Part shown: positions 8,890 to 32,686 of the stretch, piece after piece | Position numbering within the stretch: position 1 is the first letter of the stretch | How the letters are laid out: every line of letters starts with the position of its first letter | Source of the DNA: a virus | Reading direction: 5' to 3' (one strand) | DNA length: 64,000 nucleotides | Virus record (IMG/VR): IMGVR_UViG_3300046820_003928 | Coordinates: 1 to 64,000 of that record | Program-made: the position numbers and the translations under genes | Notes under the pieces: generated by a model | The model's database searches: none | The model's input: only the letters and a program-made list of their open reading frames with translations | Told to the model about the DNA's origin: nothing

Positions 8890-9420
8890 TTAGCCGCCAG
8901 CAGACCCCTTACCTGCAGCACCGGGAGCAATTGGAACATCAATGATGTCATCCTCTCCATCAAGGTCGAAGCCATACTGATTATCAAGGATATCCTGCAT
9001 TTGATCGACGTAACTCTGATCGTAGTTTTCTCTGAGATATTTCATTGCACGTGCAACAATAACCTCTTGGACAGGAAGTAGATCTGTTGCATTATTCACA
9101 AGTCTTGCAATCTTGCTTGTGAAAACCTCGATATCAAGGGGCAACCTGGGCTCCTTGGCGTCGTCTTTCGTGGCATCAGCTGGCTTTGCGCCCTTTTCAG
9201 GGGTTGTCTCTTCTTCCTCAAGAAGGAATCCAAGTGAAAGATTGGCTAGTGATTCCATCAATTCATCAGATTCTTGGTCATCTTCTGATTTAAGAGATTC
9301 ACTTTCATATCGAACAATACGTGCATCAATCTCAGAATCAAGAGAATCAGCAGGTGGACCCGGGTCCTTCATCATTCCTGCAACGGGAGAATCGTTCATC
9401 TCCTCATCTATTCTTTTCAT
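8890..9420 (-). CDS. acidic hypothetical protein
   Basis: A 176-residue very acidic protein with a DQESDELMESLANLSLG region, an Ala/Lys/Pro linker and a helical C-terminal part (VARAMKYLRENYDQSYVDQM) ending Gly-rich. Not recognised. Its start overlaps the stop of the SOD-like gene upstream by four bases, which suggests co-production with it. Confidence 0.6.
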   Translation of the reverse strand: MKRIDEEMNDSPVAGMMKDPGPPADSLDSEIDARIVRYESESLKSEDDQESDELMESLANLSLGFLLEEEETTPEKGAKPADATKDDAKEPRLPLDIEVFTSKIARLVNNATDLLPVQEVIVARAMKYLRENYDQSYVDQMQDILDNQYGFDLDGEDDIIDVPIAPGAAGKGSAGG

Positions 9421-10112
9421 GATGCACTCACCTTCATCGCCTGTGCGACCTTTTCAGCCTTCCTGATTCTCTCTTCTACAACAGTCCAATTAAGCTCCTT
9501 CATCATAGCATATGTGAAGGTCTTGACATCGGAAAGATAATCGCGGTAGTAAGCATGCTGCCAGACATCCATTACGATCACTGGAATACATCCAATCGGA
9601 ACCTGCTGGCTGTGCAAGTCGATGAATGTGTTCATGTATGTTTGTGTGAAGATGTTGTAATATGTCATCGCCCATCCGCATCTTGATGAAAGACAGCAAG
9701 CAATAAAATCTGACTGCCATCTGTCAAAGTCACCAAAATCTCGGGAAAGACGCATGAAAGACAGCGTGTCCATTGAGATGCTACTTGCAACATCGCTGAT
9801 GTTTGCAAAATAAAGCTCGTGGAGATACATCGCATTCATGTTATAGGTCTCATCTTGCTTGAGAGATCTAAACTGCGATCCATTTGATCGTGCGGAAGCA
9901 CGATCTACAGTGTCAAGCTCGGCACTGATTCTATTGAAAGATTCAACATATCCCTGATAAAGACCTTCATGGGCCTTCTTTGTTGCAGCACTCTGGAATT
10001 CTGTGGAAAGATTAAAAGCCTTCTCCTGTGCTACGAGAGCTTCATCAAGTGACGCTCTCTTTGCTCCAAGAGACTCACTGATTATCTTTGCAACATCTGA
10101 ATTTTTTATCAT
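9417..10112 (-). CDS. Fe/Mn superoxide dismutase-like protein
   Basis: Resembles iron/manganese superoxide dismutase, which converts superoxide to hydrogen peroxide and oxygen. All four expected metal ligands can be placed: His48 (AHEGLYQGYV, the helical hairpin motif), His98 (YLHELYFANI), Asp182 and His186 (MDVWQHAYYRDY). The GWAM segment and the DVWxHAYYxDY signature are typical. At 231 residues it is slightly longer than the usual ~200 because of an N-terminal helix (NSDVAKIISESLG). It lies between unassigned genes, so it may act in the infected cell or be a virion protein. Enzyme activity is inferred from ligand conservation. Confidence 0.82.
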   Translation of the reverse strand: MIKNSDVAKIISESLGAKRASLDEALVAQEKAFNLSTEFQSAATKKAHEGLYQGYVESFNRISAELDTVDRASARSNGSQFRSLKQDETYNMNAMYLHELYFANISDVASSISMDTLSFMRLSRDFGDFDRWQSDFIACCLSSRCGWAMTYYNIFTQTYMNTFIDLHSQQVPIGCIPVIVMDVWQHAYYRDYLSDVKTFTYAMMKELNWTVVEERIRKAEKVAQAMKVSAS

Positions 10113-10391: not shown

Positions 10392-10841
10392 TCAGCTACT
10401 TATCTTCCTTACTAAAATTCCTGCGCTTCTCAAGAGATCAATTCCTCCAAAGTCGCGATATTCTTCTCTAAAGACGACTTCTTTTATGCCAGAATTGATG
10501 ATTGACTTGGCACACATTCTGCATGGACTCATACTGACATACATGATTTTTTTCTTAGGATTATTGTAATCAAGCTTGATAAGAGCATTTACCTCTGCAT
10601 GGATAAATCCAGATTCTCCGGGCATGTCAGATTCTCTCTGATTCTTTCCCCCCGAATGATCTCCGTTATAGCCAAGAGCAAGAAGCTGAGTGTTGTCGCT
10701 TGTTACAACAATGGCAGCAACTTTATGCACTGAATCTGCAGACCTCTTTTCGATAGTCTTGACAACATCCATCCAGACTTGATCCCAGGTTGGCCTTTGA
10801 TCTTGTGTGTGTCTTAGATCATCAAGGAAATCATTTCTCAC
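10392..10841 (-). CDS. dCMP deaminase (cytidine/deoxycytidylate deaminase family)
   Basis: Converts dCMP to dUMP, the precursor for thymidylate synthesis. Zinc-site motifs are clear: HAEVNALIKL (His ligand and catalytic Glu) and SPCRMCAKSI (two Cys ligands). The GTG at 10841 is preferred because it overlaps the preceding stop by 11 bases and has GAGGGTG upstream; an ATG-led 160-residue form would overlap 44 bases. It works with ThyX, thymidine kinase and the dUTPase-type enzymes elsewhere in the window. In the same transcript as DHH phosphodiesterase and TK. Confidence 0.92.
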   Translation of the reverse strand: MRNDFLDDLRHTQDQRPTWDQVWMDVVKTIEKRSADSVHKVAAIVVTSDNTQLLALGYNGDHSGGKNQRESDMPGESGFIHAEVNALIKLDYNNPKKKIMYVSMSPCRMCAKSIINSGIKEVVFREEYRDFGGIDLLRSAGILVRKISS

Positions 10842-11682
10842 TGGCAGCACCCTCAATGTCAAATATCGTCTCAATGCTTATTCCGGCCGGAAGTGAAAAA
10901 CCAGCAGCCTTTCTGTGACCTCCTCCGCCGAACTTCTTGGCAATTTCACTAACGTCAGAATCGTCGTGGTGAGCTCTAAGGCTTACCTTGACCTGACTTG
11001 TCTCGTGATCCCAATACCAGATAACAGCGAAATCGCATTTAGGGGAAAGCGCGGCGCCGATTTCAGACATCCAATGTGGTGAATTTACAACAAGAACATC
11101 ATTTCCATCAAGCTTCCTTGAAGATGCATGCTTCGCGATCTTCGAGATAACAGTCTTGGAGTAAGCGAGGATGTAAGCACCTCTTTCCTGAGCACTGTCA
11201 ACTGCTGAGTCATCGAGGTACTTGTCGAACTCTTCGAAGTCAAATGGAACCATGTCGAACGCAGCGGAAAACTCCTTGGAGTAGGGAATCTGCCATTTCC
11301 AGAGATCACGATCCTCGATAAACTTGATCATTCGAGGTGCTTCCTTGCCTGGATGGAAGAAGTTCCAAGAGAGCATCGCACCGCTGTGGGTCATGTCAAA
11401 TCGAGTGCAGGTAATGTCATGCAGTTCCACCATCGCAGATTTGTGATGATCGATAACAAGAAATCCCTTTGCCTCTTTCATCAACCGCTTTGTTGTCGCA
11501 TTGTCATACGAGAAATCTAGAATGACAACATTTTTTCCAGCGACATCCGGCGGGGGTTCACCATACTTTGCAGCGTGGTATTCTGCACGATCACCAAGCA
11601 GCTTCCAGGCAGCATAAGCAGCCCCAAATCCGTCTGTACAATTTGCATGATAGATCACAAGATCGACACTACCGGGATCCAT
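10831..11682 (-). CDS. DHH/DHHA1-family phosphodiesterase
   Basis: A 283-residue phosphodiesterase of the DHH superfamily (RecJ/NrnA/GdpP-like), which hydrolyses short nucleic acids or dinucleotides using two metal ions. Motifs in order: YHANCTDGFGAAYA (motif I, Asp ligand), ILDFSYD (motif II), VIDHHKS (the DHH triad), and the C-terminal DHHA1 glycine motif FGGGGHRKAAGF. The ATG at 11682 overlaps the thymidine kinase stop (TAATG) with AGGA upstream, so it is preferred over 11718. The substrate is not readable: nanoRNA, pApA or a cyclic-nucleotide defence signal are all possible. Confidence 0.88.
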   Translation of the reverse strand: MDPGSVDLVIYHANCTDGFGAAYAAWKLLGDRAEYHAAKYGEPPPDVAGKNVVILDFSYDNATTKRLMKEAKGFLVIDHHKSAMVELHDITCTRFDMTHSGAMLSWNFFHPGKEAPRMIKFIEDRDLWKWQIPYSKEFSAAFDMVPFDFEEFDKYLDDSAVDSAQERGAYILAYSKTVISKIAKHASSRKLDGNDVLVVNSPHWMSEIGAALSPKCDFAVIWYWDHETSQVKVSLRAHHDDSDVSEIAKKFGGGGHRKAAGFSLPAGISIETIFDIEGAASEK

Positions 11683-12254
11683 TAGAAGTCCTGCACACGA
11701 TTGTGATGATTCCAGCATCTTGGCTCATATAGCTCAGAACCTCCAACAGCAATTTCTCCGAGATTTTCAACTTTTCGTGTTGTGAAATAAGCATCAGAAC
11801 CGCAAGTTGTGCAAACTGCAGAGCACTTCTCAATGTGTGTCGCCCAGGGTAGAATCTCCTTGATCTCATCAAAGGCATTACAGGATGCTGACATCTCAAT
11901 TGAGGCGACAACAACTGTAAATCCAGATCGATACAAAGAGATCAGAGCATCAGAAACACCGTCGATCATAAATGCCTCGTCGACAGCAATGACATCTGGG
12001 CGCTGGTCTTGGTTTGTTACAACCCTTAGGATATCTTTTCCACTAGAGACATTGATAGCTGGAATCTTTCCACCATTGTGAGTACAGATCTCGCTTGTCT
12101 CATACCTGTCATCCATTCTAGGCTTAAACGCCAGAATTTTCAGACCTTTGTATCTAAACCTGTCAACAAGCGCAATCAGCCTGGTAGTCTTTGACCCCAT
12201 CATAGGCCCTGTAAAAACGTAGAAGGCTGGGTTCATCATGTTAGATTCCACCAT
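11682..12254 (-). CDS. tdk: thymidine kinase
   Basis: Type II thymidine kinase, phosphorylating thymidine to dTMP for salvage. Visible are the P-loop region FTGPMMGSKTTRL, the Walker-B/catalytic motif VIAVDEAFMID, and the structural zinc site (CTTC near the middle, CWNHH at the C-terminus). Length 190 is typical. ATG 12254 has GGAGAAG eight bases upstream; a second in-frame ATG at 12239 overlaps the preceding stop as ATGA and is a fair alternative. Complements the de novo thymidylate route encoded by ThyX. Confidence 0.92.
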   Translation of the reverse strand: MVESNMMNPAFYVFTGPMMGSKTTRLIALVDRFRYKGLKILAFKPRMDDRYETSEICTHNGGKIPAINVSSGKDILRVVTNQDQRPDVIAVDEAFMIDGVSDALISLYRSGFTVVVASIEMSASCNAFDEIKEILPWATHIEKCSAVCTTCGSDAYFTTRKVENLGEIAVGGSELYEPRCWNHHNRVQDF

Positions 12255-13249
12255 TTTAGGGTCTTCTCCAATCCGTCCCTGAAAGAGACCTTGGGTACAT
12301 ATCCGAAATCTCTTTGTGCAGCGCTGTAATCTCCTAGAGTATGCATAACGTCTCCTGCGCGCCAGGGCGCATCGACTATATTAATGCCTTCGAAACGATT
12401 TTTTAAGTAATCGATAATTTCCCTATTTGTGATTCTTTCACCGCAACAAACGTTGTATGATTCACCTGAGAACTTTTTATCAGAAAATGCTGCAAGAATA
12501 TTTGCGTCAACAATGTTATCGACATGACACATATCTCGAGACTGACTTCCGTCTCCATCGGACCTTAGAGGTCTACCATCGTGAATAGCATGGCACCAAG
12601 CAGAGACTGCAGTTGAATAGGGCGAATCTCCAAGTTGCCCCTGACCAAATACGTTGAAGTATCTTAAAAAGACAATGTCAAGATCGTAAAGACTGCTAAA
12701 CAACTTTCCAAACTCTTCTAGGCAAGACTTCTGAAGGGCGTATGGAGAGACGGGATTCTTTGGTACTGATTCGTGAGTTGGCAGAACTTCGGAAGCTCCA
12801 TAGACTGCTGATGACGAAGCTGTAACTACACGGCGCGTATTTCCCGAACATGCAACAAGGAGATGAAGAGACTTCATCAGATTTTCGTCTGTTGTCTCTA
12901 TTGGGTTTTCAACCGAGTAAGAGACACGTGGCATTGCTGCCTGGTGGAAGACTACATCATACATCTTGCTTTGGATTCTTGAAAGTACGACTGGAGATGC
13001 AAAATCGTTCTCGATGACCCACACCTGATCAGCGGGTCGATTTTCAATTTGGGACTCGAAAATGTTGACAAGGTTACCGATAAACGTTTTAAAATTCAAA
13101 CCCTCAAGATTTTCTAGAGACCCATTTGACATGTTGTCAACTACGTCGACTGTGTGGCCGTTTTCAACGAGCTTCTTGACAAGGTTGGACCCAATAAAAC
13201 CGGCTCCTCCGGTTACAAGGATCCGTGAAAAAGGCAAAATCTCAGACAT
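12236..13249 (-). CDS. NAD-dependent nucleotide-sugar epimerase/dehydratase
   Basis: Extended short-chain dehydrogenase of the UDP-glucose 4-epimerase type. Rossmann motif VTGGAGFIGSNLVKKL is at the N-terminus; the active-site Ser/Tyr/Lys set is SSSAVYG and YALQK; RYFNVFG and the C-terminal substrate region follow. 337 residues is the usual length. It interconverts or modifies nucleotide sugars, possibly to alter host surface sugars, decorate virions, or feed DNA glycosylation; no glycosyltransferase is visible in the window to decide. It is coupled to thymidine kinase downstream. Confidence 0.9.
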   Translation of the reverse strand: MSEILPFSRILVTGGAGFIGSNLVKKLVENGHTVDVVDNMSNGSLENLEGLNFKTFIGNLVNIFESQIENRPADQVWVIENDFASPVVLSRIQSKMYDVVFHQAAMPRVSYSVENPIETTDENLMKSLHLLVACSGNTRRVVTASSSAVYGASEVLPTHESVPKNPVSPYALQKSCLEEFGKLFSSLYDLDIVFLRYFNVFGQGQLGDSPYSTAVSAWCHAIHDGRPLRSDGDGSQSRDMCHVDNIVDANILAAFSDKKFSGESYNVCCGERITNREIIDYLKNRFEGINIVDAPWRAGDVMHTLGDYSAAQRDFGYVPKVSFRDGLEKTLKWWNLT

Positions 13250-13283: not shown

Positions 13284-14156
13284 TTATGGAACAATGTGAG
13301 CGCAATTTAACTTGACTCTCATTTTAATGTTCCTGTTCTTGAGACCGGCAAGAATCTGGGTCTTGAATCCAAGATGGACAAGGGCATCAAGATCGATCTT
13401 TAGATTTTTTGGAATATTTGTTGATCTGCATACAACGTCAAGGACATCCTGTTCATCTCGATGGATAAATCTAACGTAAGAGATGCAGCTTGAGTTCGCT
13501 GTTACAAACCTGCGAGAAGCAGCAGATTGACCACTTGCCATCTCATTCACAATCCTGTTCATTAGATCTGACTCAATTGAAGAGTAATACTCCTCTTCTC
13601 CAGAGACGCTGAGTGAATCGGGACCGGGATCATCGACAGGGGAAAGGATCACCTCAAACTGTGTATCAATTGATTCGTTGCGTCCCGTTGTGGAAAGAGA
13701 CATCTCAGCATACTCGGCGATCCGCTTTGTTGTAACTGCCTCTCTGCTTGTGATAACATCGCGCACCGCTTCGGGATCTGGTAGTTCTCGACAAACAATT
13801 ACAGAGGGGTGATACCGCAGCGCCATCGCGTGACTGTTGAACTCCTCCCACGTTCTCCGTAGTGTATCAAGGTTGTGCATCTCATCACCTCTGGATGCAA
13901 ACCGCGCTGTTACAGTGTTCCACCCGGGGGCAAGAAGAACGACAACGTTGTTTAGATCGTCAAGAAATCTATTTAAGTCTCCCTTTTCATGGCTATCATC
14001 ACGTCCAAAAATCTTGGGATAAACAGCGCGGCTAAGATGACCTCGATCTCTAATGTCATATCGAAAATCTGTTGCCTTGTGGAAATCACGATAGAATGTA
14101 GTCTTCCCAGAGAGATCGCAGCCCTCAAGAACAACCTGCTTCGTTACCAGTCTCAT
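13284..14156 (-). CDS. P-loop nucleotide kinase fused to thymidylate-synthase-like half domain
   Basis: A 290-residue two-part protein. Residues 1-125 look like an NMP/deoxynucleoside kinase: Walker A GCDLSGKTTF at 12-21 and a kinase-like central region. Residues about 195-290 match the C-terminal half of thymidylate synthase / dCMP hydroxymethylase: SRR (214-216, phosphate arginines), Cys224 (nucleophile position), Arg244-Ser245 exactly 20 residues later, Asn247, and Asp255 at the position that is Asn in dUMP enzymes but Asp in dCMP hydroxymethylase, then AHIV with His287 matching AHIY. The usual loop between SRR and Cys is much shorter, and the N-terminal half of TS is missing. The ATG at 14156 forms ATGA with the dnaE stop and has GAGGAAG upstream. 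Kinase call is firm; TS-like reading is my inference from spacing. Confidence 0.8.
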   Translation of the reverse strand: MRLVTKQVVLEGCDLSGKTTFYRDFHKATDFRYDIRDRGHLSRAVYPKIFGRDDSHEKGDLNRFLDDLNNVVVLLAPGWNTVTARFASRGDEMHNLDTLRRTWEEFNSHAMALRYHPSVIVCRELPDPEAVRDVITSREAVTTKRIAEYAEMSLSTTGRNESIDTQFEVILSPVDDPGPDSLSVSGEEEYYSSIESDLMNRIVNEMASGQSAASRRFVTANSSCISYVRFIHRDEQDVLDVVCRSTNIPKNLKIDLDALVHLGFKTQILAGLKNRNIKMRVKLNCAHIVP

Positions 14157-17100
14157 ACTTGAATCTTCCTCATCTTGTTGTTGTTTGTGGAGCATCCCCA
14201 GTTTGCATCTTTGCTAACTTCAGCAATGTAGATCTCATAGTGATTGAGCGGCATTTCACCCCAGATTCTCAGATTCACCATTTGCATCTCATTGTCGCAT
14301 ACCTGGGCACGAATAAAACCCTTGCCATTCTTTGTCTTCTTTACAGTAAAGTCCTGAACCAAGAACCAGCAAATCTGCCTTTCTCCATCTCCAATCGCAG
14401 TGATGGGATCGACCTGGGCCTTTTTGATCTTAGCAATAATGTCATCTGGAAACATTAGATCTTCACGAGAAGTTGACGTTAGGTCAAAGTACATCTTAAG
14501 CTTCTCTGATCGTGTCCAGTCAGGTAGATCTTCAAACTGCTCAAGTAGATTCCAGAACGTCACTTCGGGCTTGATTCCTTCCTTCTGCATCTTCTTGAGC
14601 TGTGTTTTCGTGTACCCAAATCTGCCCCGTCGAAGAACATCATAATTCTTTCCCTCTGTCATGGTGGCAAGAAGCTGTCGATGGTTCTTGACCCGACCCG
14701 ATCTAAAGTCTTCAAGCGAGCTAAGTGCTTCGACGCTACAGAGTGAAGTGAGAGTCGTCTTGTTCACCTTTGAATGACGCCAGGATCCATCAGCAAGATA
14801 GAGCATCTGCTCAATCGACTTATAGGGTCGATTATCCATGATTTCCTTGACAGCAGTTTCACCAACGCCCTTGATCGATGTCAAGGGAGGAACAAAACCC
14901 TGTAGCTCCCGACTAAACATCCAAACATCTCCAGAGCTGTTGATGTCAGGTGGAAAGATCTTGAATCCCTGCTCCTTGATCTCAGCAGCTACCTTCGCGA
15001 GTCCTTCTGGGTTGCTATTCTCAGACTGGAGGCATGTGGCAAGCCACTCTTCTTCATAGTGCTTGTGCAGCCAGGCTGCGTAGTAAGAATCGACTGCATA
15101 TGAGACAGAGTGTGACTTGTTGAACCCGTATGCGGAGAAGGCCTCAATTGTTTCGTAGAGCTCCGTTGCGTCCTTCACCGACATTCCATTGAGATTGACA
15201 GCACCGTCTACGAATCTCTTACGAAGATCCTCACGCTCTTTTGCCTTCTTTTCGTTCATGTCAAGCGACTTCTTGACCAGCGTCTTGCGCATCTGGTCAG
15301 ATTCTCCCGGATTAAATCCAGCAAGCTTCTGGGCCAACAACATGAATTGCTCCTGGTAGACGACGAATCCGTGTGTCGGTCCCAGGATGTCTTTCAGAAT
15401 TGGATGCTTATAGGTTGCTGTTCCCTTGTTCTTGACATCGACGTATTTCTTGTGAACTCCTGCAGCAAGCGGACCAGGACGGTAGATTGCTGTGATGGCA
15501 GAGAGATCTTCGATTGACGTGGGCTTCGCCTCGAGGCAGAACTTTCTAGCTCCGCTATTCGTGAACTGGAAGATCTGGGTAAATCTACCAGAATGATAGA
15601 CGTGCTTCCACACATCTTGATCATCGGGTTCGTTATATCGAATGTTGAGATGCTTATCAAAGAACTCTTTGACCTGCGCAAAGCTAGGGTTTTGGATGCC
15701 AAAGCGAGTCTGCAGCAACATTCGAATGCAGTCTTCGACCATCTTTAGAAGCGACAGACCGAGGAAGTCAAACTTGAGGAATCCGTTCTCCTCAAGATGT
15801 CGGAAGTTCATGCCTTCAGACCACGGCGTCTGCAACTCACCTCGGACTGAGATGACAGGCATATGATCTTCAAGGCGTGGGCAGATAAGAACGCCGCCGG
15901 CATGGCGACCAATCGAACGTGTCTCCATGAAGAGTGACTGAACCTGATCACAAAGGTCAGGATACTTCTCCATGAAGATCTTGTACTTCTCAGAATATTT
16001 CATGCAGTCTGCATGAGAAAGAACGTATGTGCTCTTTTCCTCGTGGTCTCCGAGCGCTTTGTGCATGACATCATCCTGAAGAGGTCCTGTGACTTCATTT
16101 ACCTCTTCGAATGGAATCCCATGAAACTTAGCAATGTCCTTGATCAGAGACTTCAGCTTTAGGGTGTTGAAGTTTGAGACAGGAACAACAGAGTCTTCTC
16201 CAAATAGATTACGTGCCTCATCAATTAGAACGTCTCGGTCACCGACGTCTGTGTCGATATCCGGCCACGCGACCTTGTGACGACCGAGGAATCTCTCCCA
16301 CAGGAGATCGTACTTGATCGGATCGACCGATGTGATTCCGAGGACGTAATTGACCAGAGATCCGGCGCCAGATCCTCGACCTGGTCCGATCAGCGTGCGA
16401 TGCTGTGCTCGATCAAAGACAAAATAAAGTGTGAGGAAGTAGTTCTCAAACTTTAGATACTTGATGTCATCAAGTTCCATCTTAAGACGTTCAACGTACT
16501 CGGGCTTTGTATGAAGACCGAGCTCAACAAGACCCTTCTTGCACATCTCAAGAAGCTGATTGAACGCTGTTTGTTCGGGCTTGTTAAAGCTTGGGAGCTT
16601 AGCAGAAGTATCGAAGGTGATTTCCTCACACTTTTCCCACGCAATATCGTATGTTCGCTCAATTGAGTCGCGAACTAGTTCCTCAGTTCCGCTGTAGAAT
16701 TCAAACTTGTCCTTATGGGCAAGATACTCATCCCACATCTGGCGCGCGTTCTTTGGGTACAACTCACACTTTAGATCTTCAAAAGCAGGCAACGTCTGCT
16801 TCTGCATATCATCAGAGCGACCTCCCATTCTACCCAGCTTCTTGTAAAGCTCACGAGCTTGCCATGCGTTCGGACTATAATAGTGAGAGTCAGCAGTGGC
16901 AATTGTCTTGATACCAGTTCGACCCGCAAGCGTGATTAGATGCTTGTTTGTTGTATGCTGGATGTCAAGACGATTGAACTGAAGCTCTAGGAAAAAGTTA
17001 TCAATTCCAACTGCATCAACAAACCGATCAGTGTGATTCTGGAGCTCGCGCTGGATCTGTTCGTGAGACTTCTTGAGTGCCTCACCCCGGATGGCAGTAG

Positions 17101-17710
17101 AAGCCAAGAGCCCACCGACACACGCTGTCGAGACAACAAGCCCTTCTCCATGCTGCTTAAGCATGTCATAATCGATCCGAGGAAATCGATAGTATCCTTC
17201 AACGTAGGATCGCTTGACAAGGTTGAACAGATTCTTGAGTCCAGTTCGATTCTTGGCAAAAACAACCAAGTGATACCGACGCTTCCACTCGTCAGCGTCA
17301 TCTGACTCAACAGTCTTCGTCTCGTCCTCGTCTTCAACAACAAGTCCGCCTGTGACTTCATCCTCTGCAAGAATATCAGTAGTTTCAGGCTTTCCCTCTT
17401 CGTTCTTTACACGCTTAGATTCAAAATGAGCAGCACGCTTCCGCTCCCATTCAGAGATCGAGGGAACAAAATAGAACTCAGCGCCATAGATCTGTCGAAA
17501 CTTTCTACCCTTGCCTTTCATCTTCTTGGCGTAGGTGTGCGCGTGAGCGAGACCGTTGCCGCTTCCGTGATCTGTCAGCGCCCAGGCATCCATCTCGTTT
17601 GACAGGATCCAGTCGATGTGCTTGTCAGGATACCCAAGACCATCATTGACCGACAGGCCCGAATGGCAGTGAAGTCCGACGAACCGACTTGGAGGCACAA
17701 TGTTACCCAT
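14153..17710 (-). CDS. dnaE: DNA polymerase III alpha subunit, DnaE type
   Basis: Replicative family-C polymerase, 1185 residues, near full bacterial length. The N-terminal PHP domain is present (GLHCHSGLSVNDGLG, ALTDHGS). Polymerase motifs follow: GPGRGSGAGSLVNYVLGIT, the catalytic WPDIDTDVGDRDVLIDEA (Asp pair), YQEQFMLLAQKLAGF and FNKSHSVSYAVDSYY, then an HhH region and a C-terminal OB-fold-like segment. There is no 3'-5' exonuclease insert, and no separate proofreading subunit is visible in the window. Unusual next to a T4-like tail and SSB. It is coupled to the kinase-TS-like gene and has a possible promoter just upstream. Confidence 0.96.
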   Translation of the reverse strand: MGNIVPPSRFVGLHCHSGLSVNDGLGYPDKHIDWILSNEMDAWALTDHGSGNGLAHAHTYAKKMKGKGRKFRQIYGAEFYFVPSISEWERKRAAHFESKRVKNEEGKPETTDILAEDEVTGGLVVEDEDETKTVESDDADEWKRRYHLVVFAKNRTGLKNLFNLVKRSYVEGYYRFPRIDYDMLKQHGEGLVVSTACVGGLLASTAIRGEALKKSHEQIQRELQNHTDRFVDAVGIDNFFLELQFNRLDIQHTTNKHLITLAGRTGIKTIATADSHYYSPNAWQARELYKKLGRMGGRSDDMQKQTLPAFEDLKCELYPKNARQMWDEYLAHKDKFEFYSGTEELVRDSIERTYDIAWEKCEEITFDTSAKLPSFNKPEQTAFNQLLEMCKKGLVELGLHTKPEYVERLKMELDDIKYLKFENYFLTLYFVFDRAQHRTLIGPGRGSGAGSLVNYVLGITSVDPIKYDLLWERFLGRHKVAWPDIDTDVGDRDVLIDEARNLFGEDSVVPVSNFNTLKLKSLIKDIAKFHGIPFEEVNEVTGPLQDDVMHKALGDHEEKSTYVLSHADCMKYSEKYKIFMEKYPDLCDQVQSLFMETRSIGRHAGGVLICPRLEDHMPVISVRGELQTPWSEGMNFRHLEENGFLKFDFLGLSLLKMVEDCIRMLLQTRFGIQNPSFAQVKEFFDKHLNIRYNEPDDQDVWKHVYHSGRFTQIFQFTNSGARKFCLEAKPTSIEDLSAITAIYRPGPLAAGVHKKYVDVKNKGTATYKHPILKDILGPTHGFVVYQEQFMLLAQKLAGFNPGESDQMRKTLVKKSLDMNEKKAKEREDLRKRFVDGAVNLNGMSVKDATELYETIEAFSAYGFNKSHSVSYAVDSYYAAWLHKHYEEEWLATCLQSENSNPEGLAKVAAEIKEQGFKIFPPDINSSGDVWMFSRELQGFVPPLTSIKGVGETAVKEIMDNRPYKSIEQMLYLADGSWRHSKVNKTTLTSLCSVEALSSLEDFRSGRVKNHRQLLATMTEGKNYDVLRRGRFGYTKTQLKKMQKEGIKPEVTFWNLLEQFEDLPDWTRSEKLKMYFDLTSTSREDLMFPDDIIAKIKKAQVDPITAIGDGERQICWFLVQDFTVKKTKNGKGFIRAQVCDNEMQMVNLRIWGEMPLNHYEIYIAEVSKDANWGCSTNNNKMRKIQV

Positions 17711-25702: not shown

Positions 25703-26653
25703 TTAAATGCCTCGAGAATTCTTGTAATTGGTAACAATCTGATCAATGTCACCAAGAATCTCATTCCAGAGCTCACGGAAGTGAGGAACTCCACCATCTG
25801 TTCCATTCATGTCATCACGAGTAGCCTGATAGATTGTATCATTTGGATGATAGGTAAGATGCTTCTCGCTGTCCTCGTCGGGCCAATAGAGATTTGTTCC
25901 GGTTCCGTTACGGAACGTCTTGATGTAATGCCAGGCAGGCTCCTTAAGATTGATCGCCACGTGAGCCTCAGGAAAAACCTTGAGAATCTCACGAGCCATG
26001 AGGGCTGCAATGATGTTGTCCTCTTCGGGCTGGATCTGCTTGTCCTGACGCTGCTTGATGAATCCAAAAGCATCGCGGATGTTCATGCGCATGTAATAGA
26101 AAGTTTCTAGGCACTTAGGCAGGACGTGTCGAGCATCCATAAGACTGATCTGCTTGGAATCAACCATGTCAACATAGAGCTGCTTCGCTTCCTTGACGTG
26201 ACGTTTCCACCGATCGTAGAACTCAGGGCTGTTCTGGATAGATCCCGGTACAAGACTGCGCTCGTGAGAAAGCCAGCGATCACCTGTGCACTGTGCAGCA
26301 AAAGAGCCTGCACGATGACGGATGAGGTGAGTTACTGTCTGCGTATCGATACCTCCAACAAGGAAGGTAAGACCAATAAGCTCCATCGCTGCAGGAAGCG
26401 CACGACCTGCAAAGACGTCTTCAAGGGTCTTGCTAAGATCAGCATCTGTTGCTTCTGCATATGGAACATGCTTGTCTGCCCAGGTAGACTTAACGAAGCA
26501 ATAAACAGCCTGTCGAATGGTCTTTGGATCTGGACTATCTACAAGCTCGATCTTTAGTGCATCGAGGCTATTAACGAACTCAGTTGTTGGCTTCTCGTCA
26601 AAACGAATTGCCATGGGAAGGGTGATTGGCTTAAGATCAAGGCTTTGTGGCAA
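25703..26653 (-). CDS. divergent flavin-dependent thymidylate synthase-like protein (ThyX family)
   Basis: A 316-residue ThyX-family protein. The FAD-binding RHR is present (residues 112-114, IRHRAGSF), as are the C-terminal family features ARHVLPKCLETFYY, MNIRDAFGFIKQRQ and an EILKVFPE helix. The classical RHRx7S-xRY active motif is altered: after RHR the sequence is AGSFAAQCTGDRW, with Cys/Thr where the Ser is expected and a longer loop. It is also longer than usual (ThyX is about 210-250). With a canonical ThyX also encoded at 30833, this copy may have another pyrimidine substrate or product. Cotranscribed with two NTP pyrophosphatases. Confidence 0.8.
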   Translation of the reverse strand: MPQSLDLKPITLPMAIRFDEKPTTEFVNSLDALKIELVDSPDPKTIRQAVYCFVKSTWADKHVPYAEATDADLSKTLEDVFAGRALPAAMELIGLTFLVGGIDTQTVTHLIRHRAGSFAAQCTGDRWLSHERSLVPGSIQNSPEFYDRWKRHVKEAKQLYVDMVDSKQISLMDARHVLPKCLETFYYMRMNIRDAFGFIKQRQDKQIQPEEDNIIAALMAREILKVFPEAHVAINLKEPAWHYIKTFRNGTGTNLYWPDEDSEKHLTYHPNDTIYQATRDDMNGTDGGVPHFRELWNEILGDIDQIVTNYKNSRGI

Positions 26654-26661
26654 GTTTTCTC

Positions 26662-27579
26662 CTATGAAAGATTATCGATGATTTGTAGCAGGTTTTCAAC
26701 CAAGATTACACCTTTTTGCTGATGTAGAGCAGTGTTGTATGGCTGAATGGGACTAAATGTCTTGAGACCATGCGAGGCAAATTCAGCAGCATGCTTAGGG
26801 GAGTCATCAACACAAAATGCCACATGTCCAGAGAATTTAGACTGAATGATCCATCTAAACTTCTCGCCGCTGAATGCTAGATCGTCAAAATAGATGCTGG
26901 ATTCCTGTAACCATCTTGCAGTATCAAAAAGACAAAGTGGATTATCTGCAGGTCGAGCAGTAAGAATCTGAACCCAGTAGCCCATGTCTCGAAGAGCATG
27001 TGTGAATCTTACTGCATGATGATCGACTCCCAGACTTCTAAGCTTGCGCTCAGAGATGAAATCCTTGAATAGCTGTTCAGTGTTGTGCCCAAGCTCTTGT
27101 GCAGCTGATGCTGCATAATACTCAGGACAATCATAGGAGATCGTTACACCTTTTGTCTCAGACAGCCAATCAAAAAATCCCTTTCGAAACTCGGCAATCA
27201 CATCATCCATGTCAAGGATAACAACAGGTCGACCATCCCACTGACGCTGAGCTAGCGTGTGCCTAAAGTGAAGATACGCATCTTTGTCATCAAATGCCTC
27301 CTTAAACTCTTCCTGATCGATCTTCCAGACATTCATGATTGCCATCAAGTATCTGAGGACATCAACGCTCTCATAGAGGATCTTTGTCCTGTCTGGCATC
27401 TTTCTATCTGAATGATGCTCCTTAAAGTTAATTGAAGATATCAGATCTGAGACCTCTGAATGAAGTTCAAGAGCAAATGATTTGGTCATCTGCTCTCGAT
27501 CTGTATCTGTGAACTTTGTGCTATCGAAGAAGAGATCAGAAAAAGACTTCTGTCTCTCTAGCATGTCCTTTAGCTTCAC
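26662..27579 (-). CDS. all-alpha NTP pyrophosphatase (MazG/dUTPase-2 type) fused to HAD nucleotidase
   Basis: A 305-residue fusion. Residues 1-110 are helical with the acidic metal-site pattern of all-alpha NTP pyrophosphatases (ALELHSEVSDL, then YESVDVLRYLMAIM). From residue 114 a HAD phosphatase follows: motif I ILDMDDVIAEF, motif II VQILTARP, motif III/IV FCVDDSPKHA, as in 5'(3')-deoxyribonucleotidases. Sequential reactions dNTP to dNMP to nucleoside would clear an unwanted nucleotide such as dUTP or a modified precursor. The fusion is clear; substrate is inferred. Confidence 0.83.
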   Translation of the reverse strand: MKLKDMLERQKSFSDLFFDSTKFTDTDREQMTKSFALELHSEVSDLISSINFKEHHSDRKMPDRTKILYESVDVLRYLMAIMNVWKIDQEEFKEAFDDKDAYLHFRHTLAQRQWDGRPVVILDMDDVIAEFRKGFFDWLSETKGVTISYDCPEYYAASAAQELGHNTEQLFKDFISERKLRSLGVDHHAVRFTHALRDMGYWVQILTARPADNPLCLFDTARWLQESSIYFDDLAFSGEKFRWIIQSKFSGHVAFCVDDSPKHAAEFASHGLKTFSPIQPYNTALHQQKGVILVENLLQIIDNLS

Positions 27580-27588
27580 TAATCCCTC

Positions 27589-27963
27589 TTAGTACTTGGA
27601 TCTAATCCTATCATGAATGATTCGATCTTTACTAACGTAAGCATCAAAAAGCTCATCGGGTGTCACACCCATAATGATTAGAAGAGAAATAAAATAATTA
27701 AAAGAATCAACCATCTCTTCTTTGAATGCTGATCTGTCAAATTCCTTGATCTCCGTCTGTCTGTGTGACTTTGCATTCTTTAGCTCTTGAACCGCCTCAA
27801 AGACCTCTTCAACTCCCCTGAGGGCGAGATCTCTAAGGTGTTGCTGCGTTTGCTTGTCTGTAAGATCGATTGGCATCTCAGGATAGACGTCTGGAACATG
27901 AGCTTGCAAAGCCCTCATAAAGGACTGTCTAAGCTCAAACATCTGGTCGAGCTTATCCTTCAA
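27589..27963 (-). CDS. all-alpha NTP pyrophosphatase (dUTPase/MazG-like)
   Basis: A 124-residue helical protein with EExxE-type motifs (GVEEVFEAVQEL and KEEMVDSFNYFISLL), typical of type-2 dUTPases or dCTPases, which cleave dNTPs to dNMP and pyrophosphate. It likely keeps dUTP out of DNA and supplies dUMP for ThyX. It lies nine bases upstream of the fusion gene, and one is probably the stand-alone paralogue of the other. Confidence 0.78.
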   Translation of the reverse strand: MKDKLDQMFELRQSFMRALQAHVPDVYPEMPIDLTDKQTQQHLRDLALRGVEEVFEAVQELKNAKSHRQTEIKEFDRSAFKEEMVDSFNYFISLLIIMGVTPDELFDAYVSKDRIIHDRIRSKY

Positions 27964-28212: not shown

Positions 28213-29010
28213 TTATTTTTGAATTTCTGGTACCCAGAACGTTGTCCGCCCGTCTTCAGTCGTCTCTCTCTTGATCTCTCTTCCGTCTGGGTCCTTGATT
28301 TGATTGTAGACTGCGAAACGTCTACTGTAATCTCCCTTTTTCCCATCAAATCCAGAAAACGTGTAGATAGTAGCCCCTCCAGTCTCATATGACTTACGGA
28401 TCACTGTCTTTATAACCCTGTTAAGAGTTTCTAGTTCTTTTCTAGATAGATCTAATGCATTTCTATAGGGATTAATCTTACTGAAGTAAAGGCACTCTGA
28501 TTTAAGATAGTTTCCTACTCCAGAGATAATAGACTGATCCATAAGAGTTGCAGCGATAGTCTTTTTACTTTTTCTAATTCTCTTCTCAAAGACTTCATCT
28601 TCTACATCTTCAGATAGCATATCAGGACCAAGAGAAGACAGTTTAGAAGAAAGAAGACTTTTTTGCGTGACCAGTTTTATGGTCCCAAAATTTCTCGTAT
28701 CGTTGAAATAGATCTCTCCTCCGCCGTCAAGACAAAATCGAACTCTACTGTGCTTTGTCTGGTTCTCAGACCAACCACCTGTCATTCCAAGAGTATTGAA
28801 GATGTGTAAATCGTCTTCCAAAGAAACAAAGATAAACTTTCCCTTACAGCCAATCTCAGTCACTTTAACAGGGAGCTTTAGATTCTCCCATCCATCAGGA
28901 TTCTTCTTTGTGTATCTCCCACTCAGAAGTTGAGCATTGACAATTGTTCGACCCAGCATCTTGCTGCTAAGGCCATCAGTTACGACTTTCGTCTCTGGTC
29001 CCTCTGGCAA
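28213..29010 (-). CDS. Fpg/Nei-family DNA glycosylase, zinc-less finger
   Basis: Formamidopyrimidine/endonuclease VIII-type glycosylase-lyase that excises oxidised bases. MPEGPE at the N-terminus supplies the catalytic Pro2 and Glu3; Lys58 lies in CKGKF; the H2TH region is SIISGVGNYLKSECL. The C-terminal finger keeps the shape GRTTFWVPEIQ with its arginine, but all four expected zinc cysteines are absent, as in the zinc-less fingers of NEIL1 and some viral Nei proteins. 265 residues is a normal length. Grouped with an MBD4-like glycosylase, so a small base-excision module. Confidence 0.9.
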   Translation of the reverse strand: MPEGPETKVVTDGLSSKMLGRTIVNAQLLSGRYTKKNPDGWENLKLPVKVTEIGCKGKFIFVSLEDDLHIFNTLGMTGGWSENQTKHSRVRFCLDGGGEIYFNDTRNFGTIKLVTQKSLLSSKLSSLGPDMLSEDVEDEVFEKRIRKSKKTIAATLMDQSIISGVGNYLKSECLYFSKINPYRNALDLSRKELETLNRVIKTVIRKSYETGGATIYTFSGFDGKKGDYSRRFAVYNQIKDPDGREIKRETTEDGRTTFWVPEIQK

Positions 29011-30832: not shown

Positions 30833-31465
30833 TTAATATCCAAACGCTGAGATCGTTTCTTTGAATGGAGATCCTGGAATTTCTCTAACTTGTCGCAGCA
30901 TCTCTTCTGCGATCCAGCAGATTTCACGTTGAGCATCTGGCTTCATGCGAAGGCCAAGAAAGTGATTGAAAGATCGCCAGTTGAACATGACGTCCATTGT
31001 GATTTGATTTCCATACGGGAGATAGAATCGAGCTGATTCTTTTGCCCGCTTCCGACTCATGCCTCCTGCGACTAACCTCTCAAGTGTATCGTGGTAGCGC
31101 ATAATTGCATCTTCCATGAAAGCAATGTACTTTGCTCTCTCCTCAAGGGGCCAATCGCTTGGAACGTAGTACTTGTCATCCTTCAGCTCCTTATAGCGAG
31201 CTGACTCACCATTTATCGAAACACCAATTCGATGCTTGAGAAGATGGATATGGCTGGCACAATCAACTGTAACAAGGAAATGAAGACTTGACTTCTCAAA
31301 GGGAGTCTCGTGTCCATTCTCAGCCAGCATTTTAAGAAGAGATGAAATTCTCGACCTCTTGTCATCATTTAGATCTCTGCTTGTACTCGTCCAAGCAGAC
31401 AATGCATGAATCTCATCAGATCCGTAATAGCCAACTAGTTCAACTTTGTTTTCTTGAAATGACAT
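30833..31465 (-). CDS. thyX: flavin-dependent thymidylate synthase
   Basis: Canonical ThyX, making dTMP from dUMP with FAD, NADPH and methylene-tetrahydrofolate. The active motif is KHRIGVSINGESARY (residues 77-91), a form of RHRxxSxNExSxRY, with the upstream region TPFEKSSLHF and the C-terminal ARFYLPYGNQITM, NWRSFNHFLGLR and AQREI motifs. 210 residues is typical. It is coupled to the DUF2061 gene upstream and stands apart from the divergent ThyX at 25703. Supplies thymidylate for phage DNA synthesis. Confidence 0.95.
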   Translation of the reverse strand: MSFQENKVELVGYYGSDEIHALSAWTSTSRDLNDDKRSRISSLLKMLAENGHETPFEKSSLHFLVTVDCASHIHLLKHRIGVSINGESARYKELKDDKYYVPSDWPLEERAKYIAFMEDAIMRYHDTLERLVAGGMSRKRAKESARFYLPYGNQITMDVMFNWRSFNHFLGLRMKPDAQREICWIAEEMLRQVREIPGSPFKETISAFGY

Positions 31466-31673
31466 TTCTTAAACTCTCTCTGATTTTTCTATCCCAAATT
31501 ATTTCAAAGAACCACTGGAGAGCTGTAAGAAACAATCCTGATACAAGTACCATGATTGTCGATTTTACAGCATCTCCGGTGAAAAGGTAAGTAATCCAGG
31601 TTCCAAATAGCATTGAAAATATTCGCCAAACAATTGTTTTAATGAAAAGCTCAATGCTATCTGTCTTCATCAT
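31440..31673 (-). CDS. DUF2061-like small membrane protein
   Basis: A 77-residue protein with two hydrophobic segments (TIVWRIFSMLFGTWITYLF and STIMVLVSGLFLTALQWFF) and a basic C-terminus. The order SxxxxIxWRxxxTxxTxxIxxLxTG-x-IE matches the small DUF2061 membrane family. Its start overlaps the glutamine synthetase stop as ATGA. Unknown role in the host inner membrane. Confidence 0.75.
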   Translation of the reverse strand: MMKTDSIELFIKTIVWRIFSMLFGTWITYLFTGDAVKSTIMVLVSGLFLTALQWFFEIIWDRKIRESLRNVISRKQS

Positions 31674-32686
31674 GAAGCCTCAAGAAGAAGTCTTGTTACA
31701 ATATAGGGATCAATATTTGCACATGGTCTCCTATCTTCGAAGTATCCACATTTCTCTTTTGCAACTTGCAAAGGAATTCTAATAGAAGCACCTCTGTCTG
31801 AGACTCCACATCTAAATTCCCTATATGAGCAAGTCTCATGCTGCCCTGTTAGTCGTTGTTCAATTCCGTGACCATAATAGGGAATGTAATCATCATGCAA
31901 TCGACGCAGGACGCTAACAATTCTGTCTATCTCTTTCATTCCTGTTTCTGGATTTCTCGTTGCAGCAGTTGACCAATTTGTATGAGCACCTGCCCCATTT
32001 AGCTCCTTGACCGGCTTCGGATCGAGCTTGGCATTGATACCGTGCTTTTCTCCAACCCGATAGAGAAGCCATCTAGCAATCCAGAGATGGTCTGAAACTG
32101 TGAGAGGATCAGCAGTTCCAATCTGGAATTCCCACTGCCCAGGCATCACCTCAGCATTCACACCGCAAATCACGATTCCTGCGTCCAAACAAGCTCTCAT
32201 GTGGTCTTCAACAAGATCTCGACCACATACTTCATCTGATCCAACGCCGCAGTAGTAGGGGCCTTGCTGTGGTGGATATCCGCCCGCAGGCCACCCGAGA
32301 GGTGTTCCTCCCCTAAACAGCGTGTATTCCTGTTCAATCCCACAAAGCGGTGCCTTGTGAGAATTCTTCTCCATCAGCTTGACAAGATGATGCCGCATAT
32401 TGGAGCGATGAGGTGTTCCATCTGCGTTGTAGACCTCGCAAAGGACAAGAATAGCGAGCTTGTCACTGCTTCTTGTCGGATCCTTGCAGAAAGTGACAGG
32501 AACGAGGATGCAATCACTTTTATCACCGGGAGCTTGATTTGTTGAAGATCCGTCGAATGTCCATTGCGGGATGTCACTGACATCAAGTCTTTCTCCAGAA
32601 AATCCAAAAATCTTTGTCTTGCTTCTAACTCTAGAAGTTGGAAGAGTTCCATCTACCCAAATGTATTCTGCTATAATATTAACCAC
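31670..32686 (-). CDS. glutamine synthetase, type II (eukaryotic/rhizobial-type)
   Basis: Makes glutamine from glutamate, ammonia and ATP. The 338-residue length and motifs match GSII rather than the usual bacterial GSI: WTFDGSSTNQAPGDKSD, CGIEQEYTLF, GPYYCGVGSD, GVNAEVMPGQWEFQIG, the ATP-region NGAGAHTNWST, RLTGQHET, SDRGASIRIP and FEDRRPCANIDPY. Metal ligands and the Glu flap region (HxEDRRP-type) appear intact. The GTG start at 32686 has GGTGAGA upstream. It is coupled to DUF2061 and next to ClpP. Likely boosts glutamine for nucleotide synthesis during infection; a role in base modification is speculation. Confidence 0.93.
   Translation of the reverse strand: MVNIIAEYIWVDGTLPTSRVRSKTKIFGFSGERLDVSDIPQWTFDGSSTNQAPGDKSDCILVPVTFCKDPTRSSDKLAILVLCEVYNADGTPHRSNMRHHLVKLMEKNSHKAPLCGIEQEYTLFRGGTPLGWPAGGYPPQQGPYYCGVGSDEVCGRDLVEDHMRACLDAGIVICGVNAEVMPGQWEFQIGTADPLTVSDHLWIARWLLYRVGEKHGINAKLDPKPVKELNGAGAHTNWSTAATRNPETGMKEIDRIVSVLRRLHDDYIPYYGHGIEQRLTGQHETCSYREFRCGVSDRGASIRIPLQVAKEKCGYFEDRRPCANIDPYIVTRLLLEAS

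Follow-up and report, generated by a model that had tools for sequence, protein, structure and literature searches.

A viral kinase joined to a minimal thymidylate-synthase-superfamily domain, probably for dCMP modification

The stretch of viral DNA analysed here (the window, 64,000 nucleotides, positions 1 to 64,000 of IMG/VR record IMGVR_UViG_3300046820_003928, a 140-kb virus record) encodes a protein in which a P-loop kinase resembling thymidylate kinase (TMPK) and YorR is joined to a minimal domain of the thymidylate synthase (TS) superfamily, hereafter mini-TS (Table 1). We think it rather probable that this two-domain enzyme modifies dCMP at C5 and then phosphorylates the product, yielding a modified cytosine for phage DNA. 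The initial annotation, made from the letters alone, had seen a nucleotide kinase fused to a TS-like half domain, and fold prediction, profile searches and invariant active-site residues bear out both parts. Its further suggestion of a composite enzyme for a modified pyrimidine nucleotide stands as a probable role in making and phosphorylating such a nucleotide, for which we infer catalysis, substrate and product. To that annotation we add the start-stop overlap with a DNA polymerase gene, a ThyX partner and a version in separate genes in Geobacillus phage GR1. Because the ATG of the fusion gene shares its ATGA with the dnaE stop, translation of the two genes is probably coupled.

Table 1. Positions of the fusion gene, its domains and active-site residues, and neighbouring genes in the window
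Feature	Position	Strand	Remark
Kinase/mini-TS fusion gene, 290 aa	13284..14156	-	ATG overlaps dnaE stop (ATGA)
Kinase domain, residues 1-123	13788..14156	-	Walker A, D37-R38, R85/R89-G90-D91; TMPK/YorR-like
Minimal TS-superfamily domain, residues 124-290	13287..13787	-	
S214-R215-R216	13509..13517	-	Counterpart of phosphate-binding Arg pair T4 R123/R124
C224	13485..13487	-	Counterpart of nucleophile T4 C148
R244-S245	13422..13427	-	Counterpart of T4 R168-S169
D255	13392..13394	-	Counterpart of T4 D179 (Asn177 in E. coli TS); dCMP-type, 57/57
H287	13296..13298	-	Counterpart of T4 H216
DnaE-type DNA polymerase III alpha	14153..17710	-	Directly upstream of fusion gene, overlapping
Nucleotide-sugar 4-epimerase-like gene	12236..13249	-	WbgU/WbpP/GalE type; directly downstream
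Thymidine kinase	11682..12254	-	
dCMP deaminase-like gene	10392..10874	-	
Long divergent ThyX	25703..26653	-	Near-obligate genomic partner of mini-TS
Ordinary-length ThyX	30833..31465	-	Probable dTMP source

Searched alone, the fusion reading frame has no Pfam match and weak PHROG matches to the thymidylate kinase family phrog_761 (residues 37-108) and to phrog_35203, a 150-residue family with no assigned function (residues 186-273). With the fusion protein as query, tblastn found no relative among 50,697 phage records, and single-sequence searches of Pfam, NCBIfam and PDB with the C-terminal half returned nothing useful; weak matches of this half to the ribosomal protease Prp (E = 0.027) and to a ryanodine receptor chain were judged to be chance, as the family profile repeats neither. 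The neighbouring DnaE used as query led to two contigs that each have an orthologue next to dnaE (71% and 33% identity), and a profile of the three sequences identified 92 related viral stretches from viral metagenomes, most of the best 80 matching over nearly the full length. These best 80 of the 92 form the homologue set, which thus holds at least 80 homologues, and an alignment of 57 of them, with 26-71% identity, underlies the conservation counts given below. Cellular genome contigs yielded two weak matches only, both to MAGs, so that a cellular origin is not supported. Compared with the 71%-identical relative, both domains are under purifying selection (dN 0.21, with dS about 2 and near saturation). 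No report of a kinase/mini-TS fusion was found in the literature searched, which covered few subscription papers.

The kinase half carries the Walker A motif EGCDLSGKT at residues 11-19. EGxDxSGK, D37-R38, R85 and G90-D91 are invariant in the 57 aligned sequences, and R89 is kept in 56. The kinase family phrog_761 is matched by all 57 members and PF02223 by 35; the score against TIGR00041 (14.7 of 83 bits) misses the cut-off. Of the solved structures, the best match is YorR of SPbeta (PDB 2axp, 3kb2; E = 3.3e-10), a TMPK-like kinase that has no TS domain and is annotated as uncharacterised.

AlphaFold2 runs on the 57-sequence alignment gave a mean pLDDT of 94.0 and a pTM of 0.90 for the whole protein, and 92.5 and 0.86 for the second domain alone. 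With either model, all 50 matches listed by Foldseek against PDB belong to the TS family (E down to 7e-6); the phage dCMP hydroxylase AfhB comes first, TSs are next, and the matches of the domain alone include T4 dCMP hydroxymethylase and the CMP hydroxymethylase MilA. As would be expected of a reduced fold, normalisation by the domain gives moderate TM-scores, most of them 0.42-0.62. In the model a helix (143-157), a strand (165-171) and a second helix (188-207) precede the SRR strand, so that the N-terminal half of TS, given as missing in the initial annotation, is lost to a lesser extent than stated; a counterpart is lacking for the folate-binding part in the middle and for the C-terminal tail. 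Strands 218-220, 225-232 and 237-243, helix 248-269 and strand 277-283 are modelled thereafter. C224 is predicted to start a strand, R244 to follow the next strand, D255 to lie in the helix beyond and H287 past the last strand, and this modelled order agrees with that known for TS, so placed that the catalytic residues would occupy the same fold positions. Had prediction given no TS fold, or profile searches no relation to TS, the initial annotation would have been abandoned by its own account; both the fold and the relation were found.

With a profile of the domain, hmmsearch against PDB chains ranked T4 dCMP hydroxymethylase best (E = 9e-4), followed by AfhB (0.015), and these were the only credible chains. 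In hhalign the domain fits dCMP-type enzymes (96.7%, 3.2e-10) better than TS/dUMP-type enzymes (47%, 1.9e-4). T4-type enzymes alone gave 94.9% and AfhB-type enzymes alone 94.5%, scores so alike that the profiles cannot separate hydroxymethylation from hydroxylation. The phage TS family phrog_160 is matched by 28 of the 57 members; PF00303, the Pfam TS model, is absent from the Pfam families listed at E 0.1 for these members, and it has no match in any of 44 fusion records.

Eight residues of the C-terminal half are invariant in all 57 sequences (E187, R215, C224, R233, R244, S245, D255 and H287), and R216, the second Arg of the SRR pair, is kept in 56. Six of the eight match the nucleotide site of T4 dCMP hydroxymethylase (R123/R124, C148, R168-S169, D179, H216). 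The distance from Cys to Arg is 20 residues and that from Arg to Asp 11, each in 56/57, and shuffling residues 186-290 produces the pattern C-x19-RS-x9-D-x25..40-H in 0.015% of cases. The motif numbering first given for the window protein is correct throughout, from Walker A and SRR (214-216) to C224, R244-S245 (C+20), N247, D255 (R+11) and A286-H287-I288-V289, and two of the readings attached to it had to be revised. The AHIV motif was said to have gained a His with respect to AHIY; in fact the His is kept and the Tyr is replaced by Val. Likewise, the change of the folate-region Asp to Asn holds for N247 of the window protein and is no family trait (Asn in 26, Asp in 24 and Glu in 7 members).

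In the T4 enzyme, C148 is the nucleophile, R123/R124 bind the phosphate from the opposite protomer, and D179 recognises cytosine and protonates N3, the D179N exchange cutting kcat up to about 3600-fold (PMC6400193). The claim of a dCMP-type specificity residue is upheld by D255, which aligns to D179 and is Asp in every member. In an independent metagenome study, virus contigs with modified cytosine were marked by an Asp at the place of Asn177 (PMC8670742); at the second marker of that study, position 147 (C+1), the present family has Ile or Leu, where E. coli TS has His and the dCMP enzymes aligned here have Thr. T4 dCMP hydroxymethylase (gp42; PDB 1b49, 1b5d) thus shares with mini-TS the Cys nucleophile, Arg-Ser, the dCMP-type Asp and the His, along with the Arg pair before the Cys strand, an Arg at C+9 and a Ser two residues before the His. 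R233 aligns with the Arg of an I-R-D stretch in T4 and AfhB enzymes, and it is also present in the TS-family enzyme of Pelagibacter phage HTVC200P.

The two enzymes differ in that gp42 has 246 residues against about 165, is not fused to a kinase, and possesses Glu60, Trp82, Tyr218 and a C-terminal tail. Glu60 of T4 serves folate activation. In profile alignments with dCMP-type and TS/dUMP-type enzymes, Glu60, Trp82 and the tail have no counterpart in mini-TS, nor do the folate-side residues Glu58 and Trp80 of TS. The Tyr two residues past the His (Tyr209 of TS) is replaced in all members, by I, L, V, R or P, and the protein ends shortly past the His; the invariant E187 could stand in for Glu60. 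Since the folate Glu, the folate-side Tyr and the tail are missing, we do not file the protein as a TS or a dCMP hydroxymethylase; it is a member of the TS superfamily by its fold and nucleotide site.

Within 5 kb of the gene at 81 loci, some of them cut by contig ends, DnaE is found 77 times, the nucleotide-sugar epimerase and thymidine kinase 59 times each, dCMP deaminase 50 times and a DHH phosphoesterase 40 times. With this frequency, lowered in part by contig ends, the epimerase was rejected as a pathway member; it may serve virion glycans. Among the operon genes, no DNA glycosyltransferase or other enzyme for further modification of the base was recognised. The nucleotide operon ends with an Fe/Mn superoxide dismutase-like gene (9417-10112, minus strand) that is kept in 28 loci, and by eye related operons hold a cupin-like protein (23 loci; L083:6888-7328) and a GMP reductase/IMPDH-like protein (20 loci; L011:6969-8006). 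Elsewhere in the window, also on the minus strand, are a glutamine-synthetase-like gene (31670-32686) and, near the ThyX genes, an Fpg/MutM-like DNA glycosylase gene (28213-29010), which could be relevant should an unusual base be present in the phage DNA. A dUTPase_2-type pyrophosphatase is seemingly split over two adjacent minus-strand genes, the end of the profile (105-162) lying in 27589-27963 and its start (1-95) in 26662-27579, where it is fused to an NT5C-like 5'-nucleotidase; this layout recurs in many related records. Outside the window, G000 113141-125451 (loci L096, L097) holds a cluster whose products look by eye like glycosyltransferases, a cupin and nucleotide-sugar enzymes and which might provide glycans for the virion or the DNA.

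ThyX is present in 40 of the 44 fusion records, and together with the lack of a PF00303 TS in all 44 this indicates that dTMP synthesis is covered otherwise. A long divergent ThyX, with open frames of about 320-350 aa and the motif RHRxxSFxAQCTGDRW, occurs in 38 of the 44; in the window genome it is found alongside an ordinary-length ThyX, a coexistence that suggests a different role for the long form. Among the 50,697 phage records, long ThyX is seen once, in phage GR1 (L114:2850-3818, 46% identical). The reverse search gave 45 viral records with long ThyX, 30 of which contain mini-TS 0.2-17 kb downstream. In all 15 records that lack it, the contig ends within 14 kb downstream, and wherever at least 18 kb is available mini-TS is present (25/25), in records that are not independent, several being near-identical. 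The pair is kept in both fused and split versions, and of all the evidence this reciprocal co-occurrence speaks most strongly for a pathway common to the two proteins. On one contig (L126/L037 in G022), long ThyX is 91% identical to the window copy and the kinase-TS fusion only about 30%, a mismatch that hints that the ThyX region was transferred separately.

GR1, a cultured phage, carries kinase, mini-TS, long ThyX and DnaE as separate genes and is the only one of the phage records with a stand-alone mini-TS. Its mini-TS gene overlaps the end of the ThyX gene near DnaE and a homologous kinase gene, and a nitroreductase-like flavin enzyme, absent from locus L117, is encoded between kinase and ThyX. 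The 151-residue GR1 protein (UDY80710, phrog_35203) shares Cys, RS, Asp, His and a YY motif with mini-TS; it is unfused, R233 and the second SRR Arg are not kept, and its Arg-to-Asp distance is one residue shorter. Pairing of a kinase with a TS-family enzyme also occurs unfused in Pelagibacter phages HTVC200P and HTVC119P, in each of which the gene for a related kinase overlaps one for a TS-family enzyme. The enzyme of HTVC200P has an Asp at R+11 as mini-TS does, whereas these phages use two genes and a full-length TS-family partner.

A narrower form of dCMP modification, in which mini-TS would be a folate-independent dCMP 5-hydroxylase like AfhB, appears to us somewhat unlikely. AfhB, a TS-family flavin-dependent dCMP hydroxylase and 5-hydroxy-dCMP synthase of Mosigvirus type, leads the fold matches of both models. 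AfhB (PDB 9iqu, 9iqc) shares with mini-TS the dCMP-type Asp, the absence of the folate Glu, an Asn after RS-x and the S-A-H motif; the family as a whole has Asn, Asp or Glu after RS-x and not a strict Asp, and the AfhB-type enzymes as aligned here lack the folate Glu and most lack the Tyr. The flavin enzyme of GR1 would suit such chemistry. AfhB differs from mini-TS in that it has about 235 residues, stands alone and retains an N-terminal part and a short tail. Against the hydroxylase reading, T4-type and AfhB-type profiles score equally, the T4 enzyme does better in the sequence search, and L117 is without the nitroreductase.

The loss of the folate-side residues, of the tail and of many TS contacts would also be consistent with a catalytically dead mini-TS that binds dCMP as a regulatory or dimerisation domain for the kinase, but the nucleophilic Cys is retained in 57/57 and also in stand-alone proteins of GR1 type that have no kinase in cis, which makes this quite unlikely. 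Still less credible is a short-form TS that acts on dUMP while the kinase makes dTDP: the TMPK-like kinase, the TS fold and a dUMP supply from dCMP deaminase and dUTPase-like genes are in its favour, yet the invariant Asp occupies the specificity position where Asn would be expected, folate residues are missing, the fit to TS/dUMP-type profiles is poor and ThyX accompanies the fusion in 40 of 44 records. Synthesis of dTMP by the fusion protein was rejected on account of this Asp and of ThyX. That the C-terminal half has no relation to TS, its motif match being coincidental, is very unlikely; the Pfam TS model is silent, but fold search, profile searches and invariant residues concur.

For C5 modification of dCMP by the fusion protein, we envisage that mini-TS would hold dCMP through its phosphate, bound by R215/R216 and R244-S245, and through its base, bound by D255. 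C224 would attack C6 and the C5 hydrogen would be replaced, giving a 5-modified dCMP with a hydroxymethyl, hydroxyl or another group. The N-terminal kinase may then convert this product to the diphosphate, which a diphosphate kinase would raise to the triphosphate for incorporation by the probably co-translated phage DnaE. The fusion would be functionally T4 gp42 and gp1 in one chain, with the divergent ThyX in the same pathway. The missing counterparts of Glu60, Trp82 and the tail, the replaced Tyr, the moderate TM-scores, Ile/Leu in place of Thr at C+1 and the lack of an identified downstream base-modifying enzyme in the operon count against dCMP modification.

More tentatively, mini-TS and long ThyX may form one two-enzyme pathway, a possibility that we put forward with reserve. 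A TS fold devoid of its folate site would activate dCMP via the Cys, the flavoprotein partner would supply a one-carbon unit, an oxidant or a hydride, and the fused kinase would commit the product, which would give these phages a modified cytosine not described before. That mini-TS is reciprocally linked to a ThyX clade with a single occurrence among 50,697 phage records speaks for a pathway and against a stray gene.

If dCMP modification by the fusion protein is correct, mini-TS would be an unusually small enzyme core of the TS superfamily, and the protein a natural fusion of T4-style steps in which dCMP is modified and then phosphorylated. The gene would then be a marker of modified cytosine in the DNA of viruses that escape present family models. 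As GR1 has a named host strain, the idea can be tested directly by nucleoside mass spectrometry.
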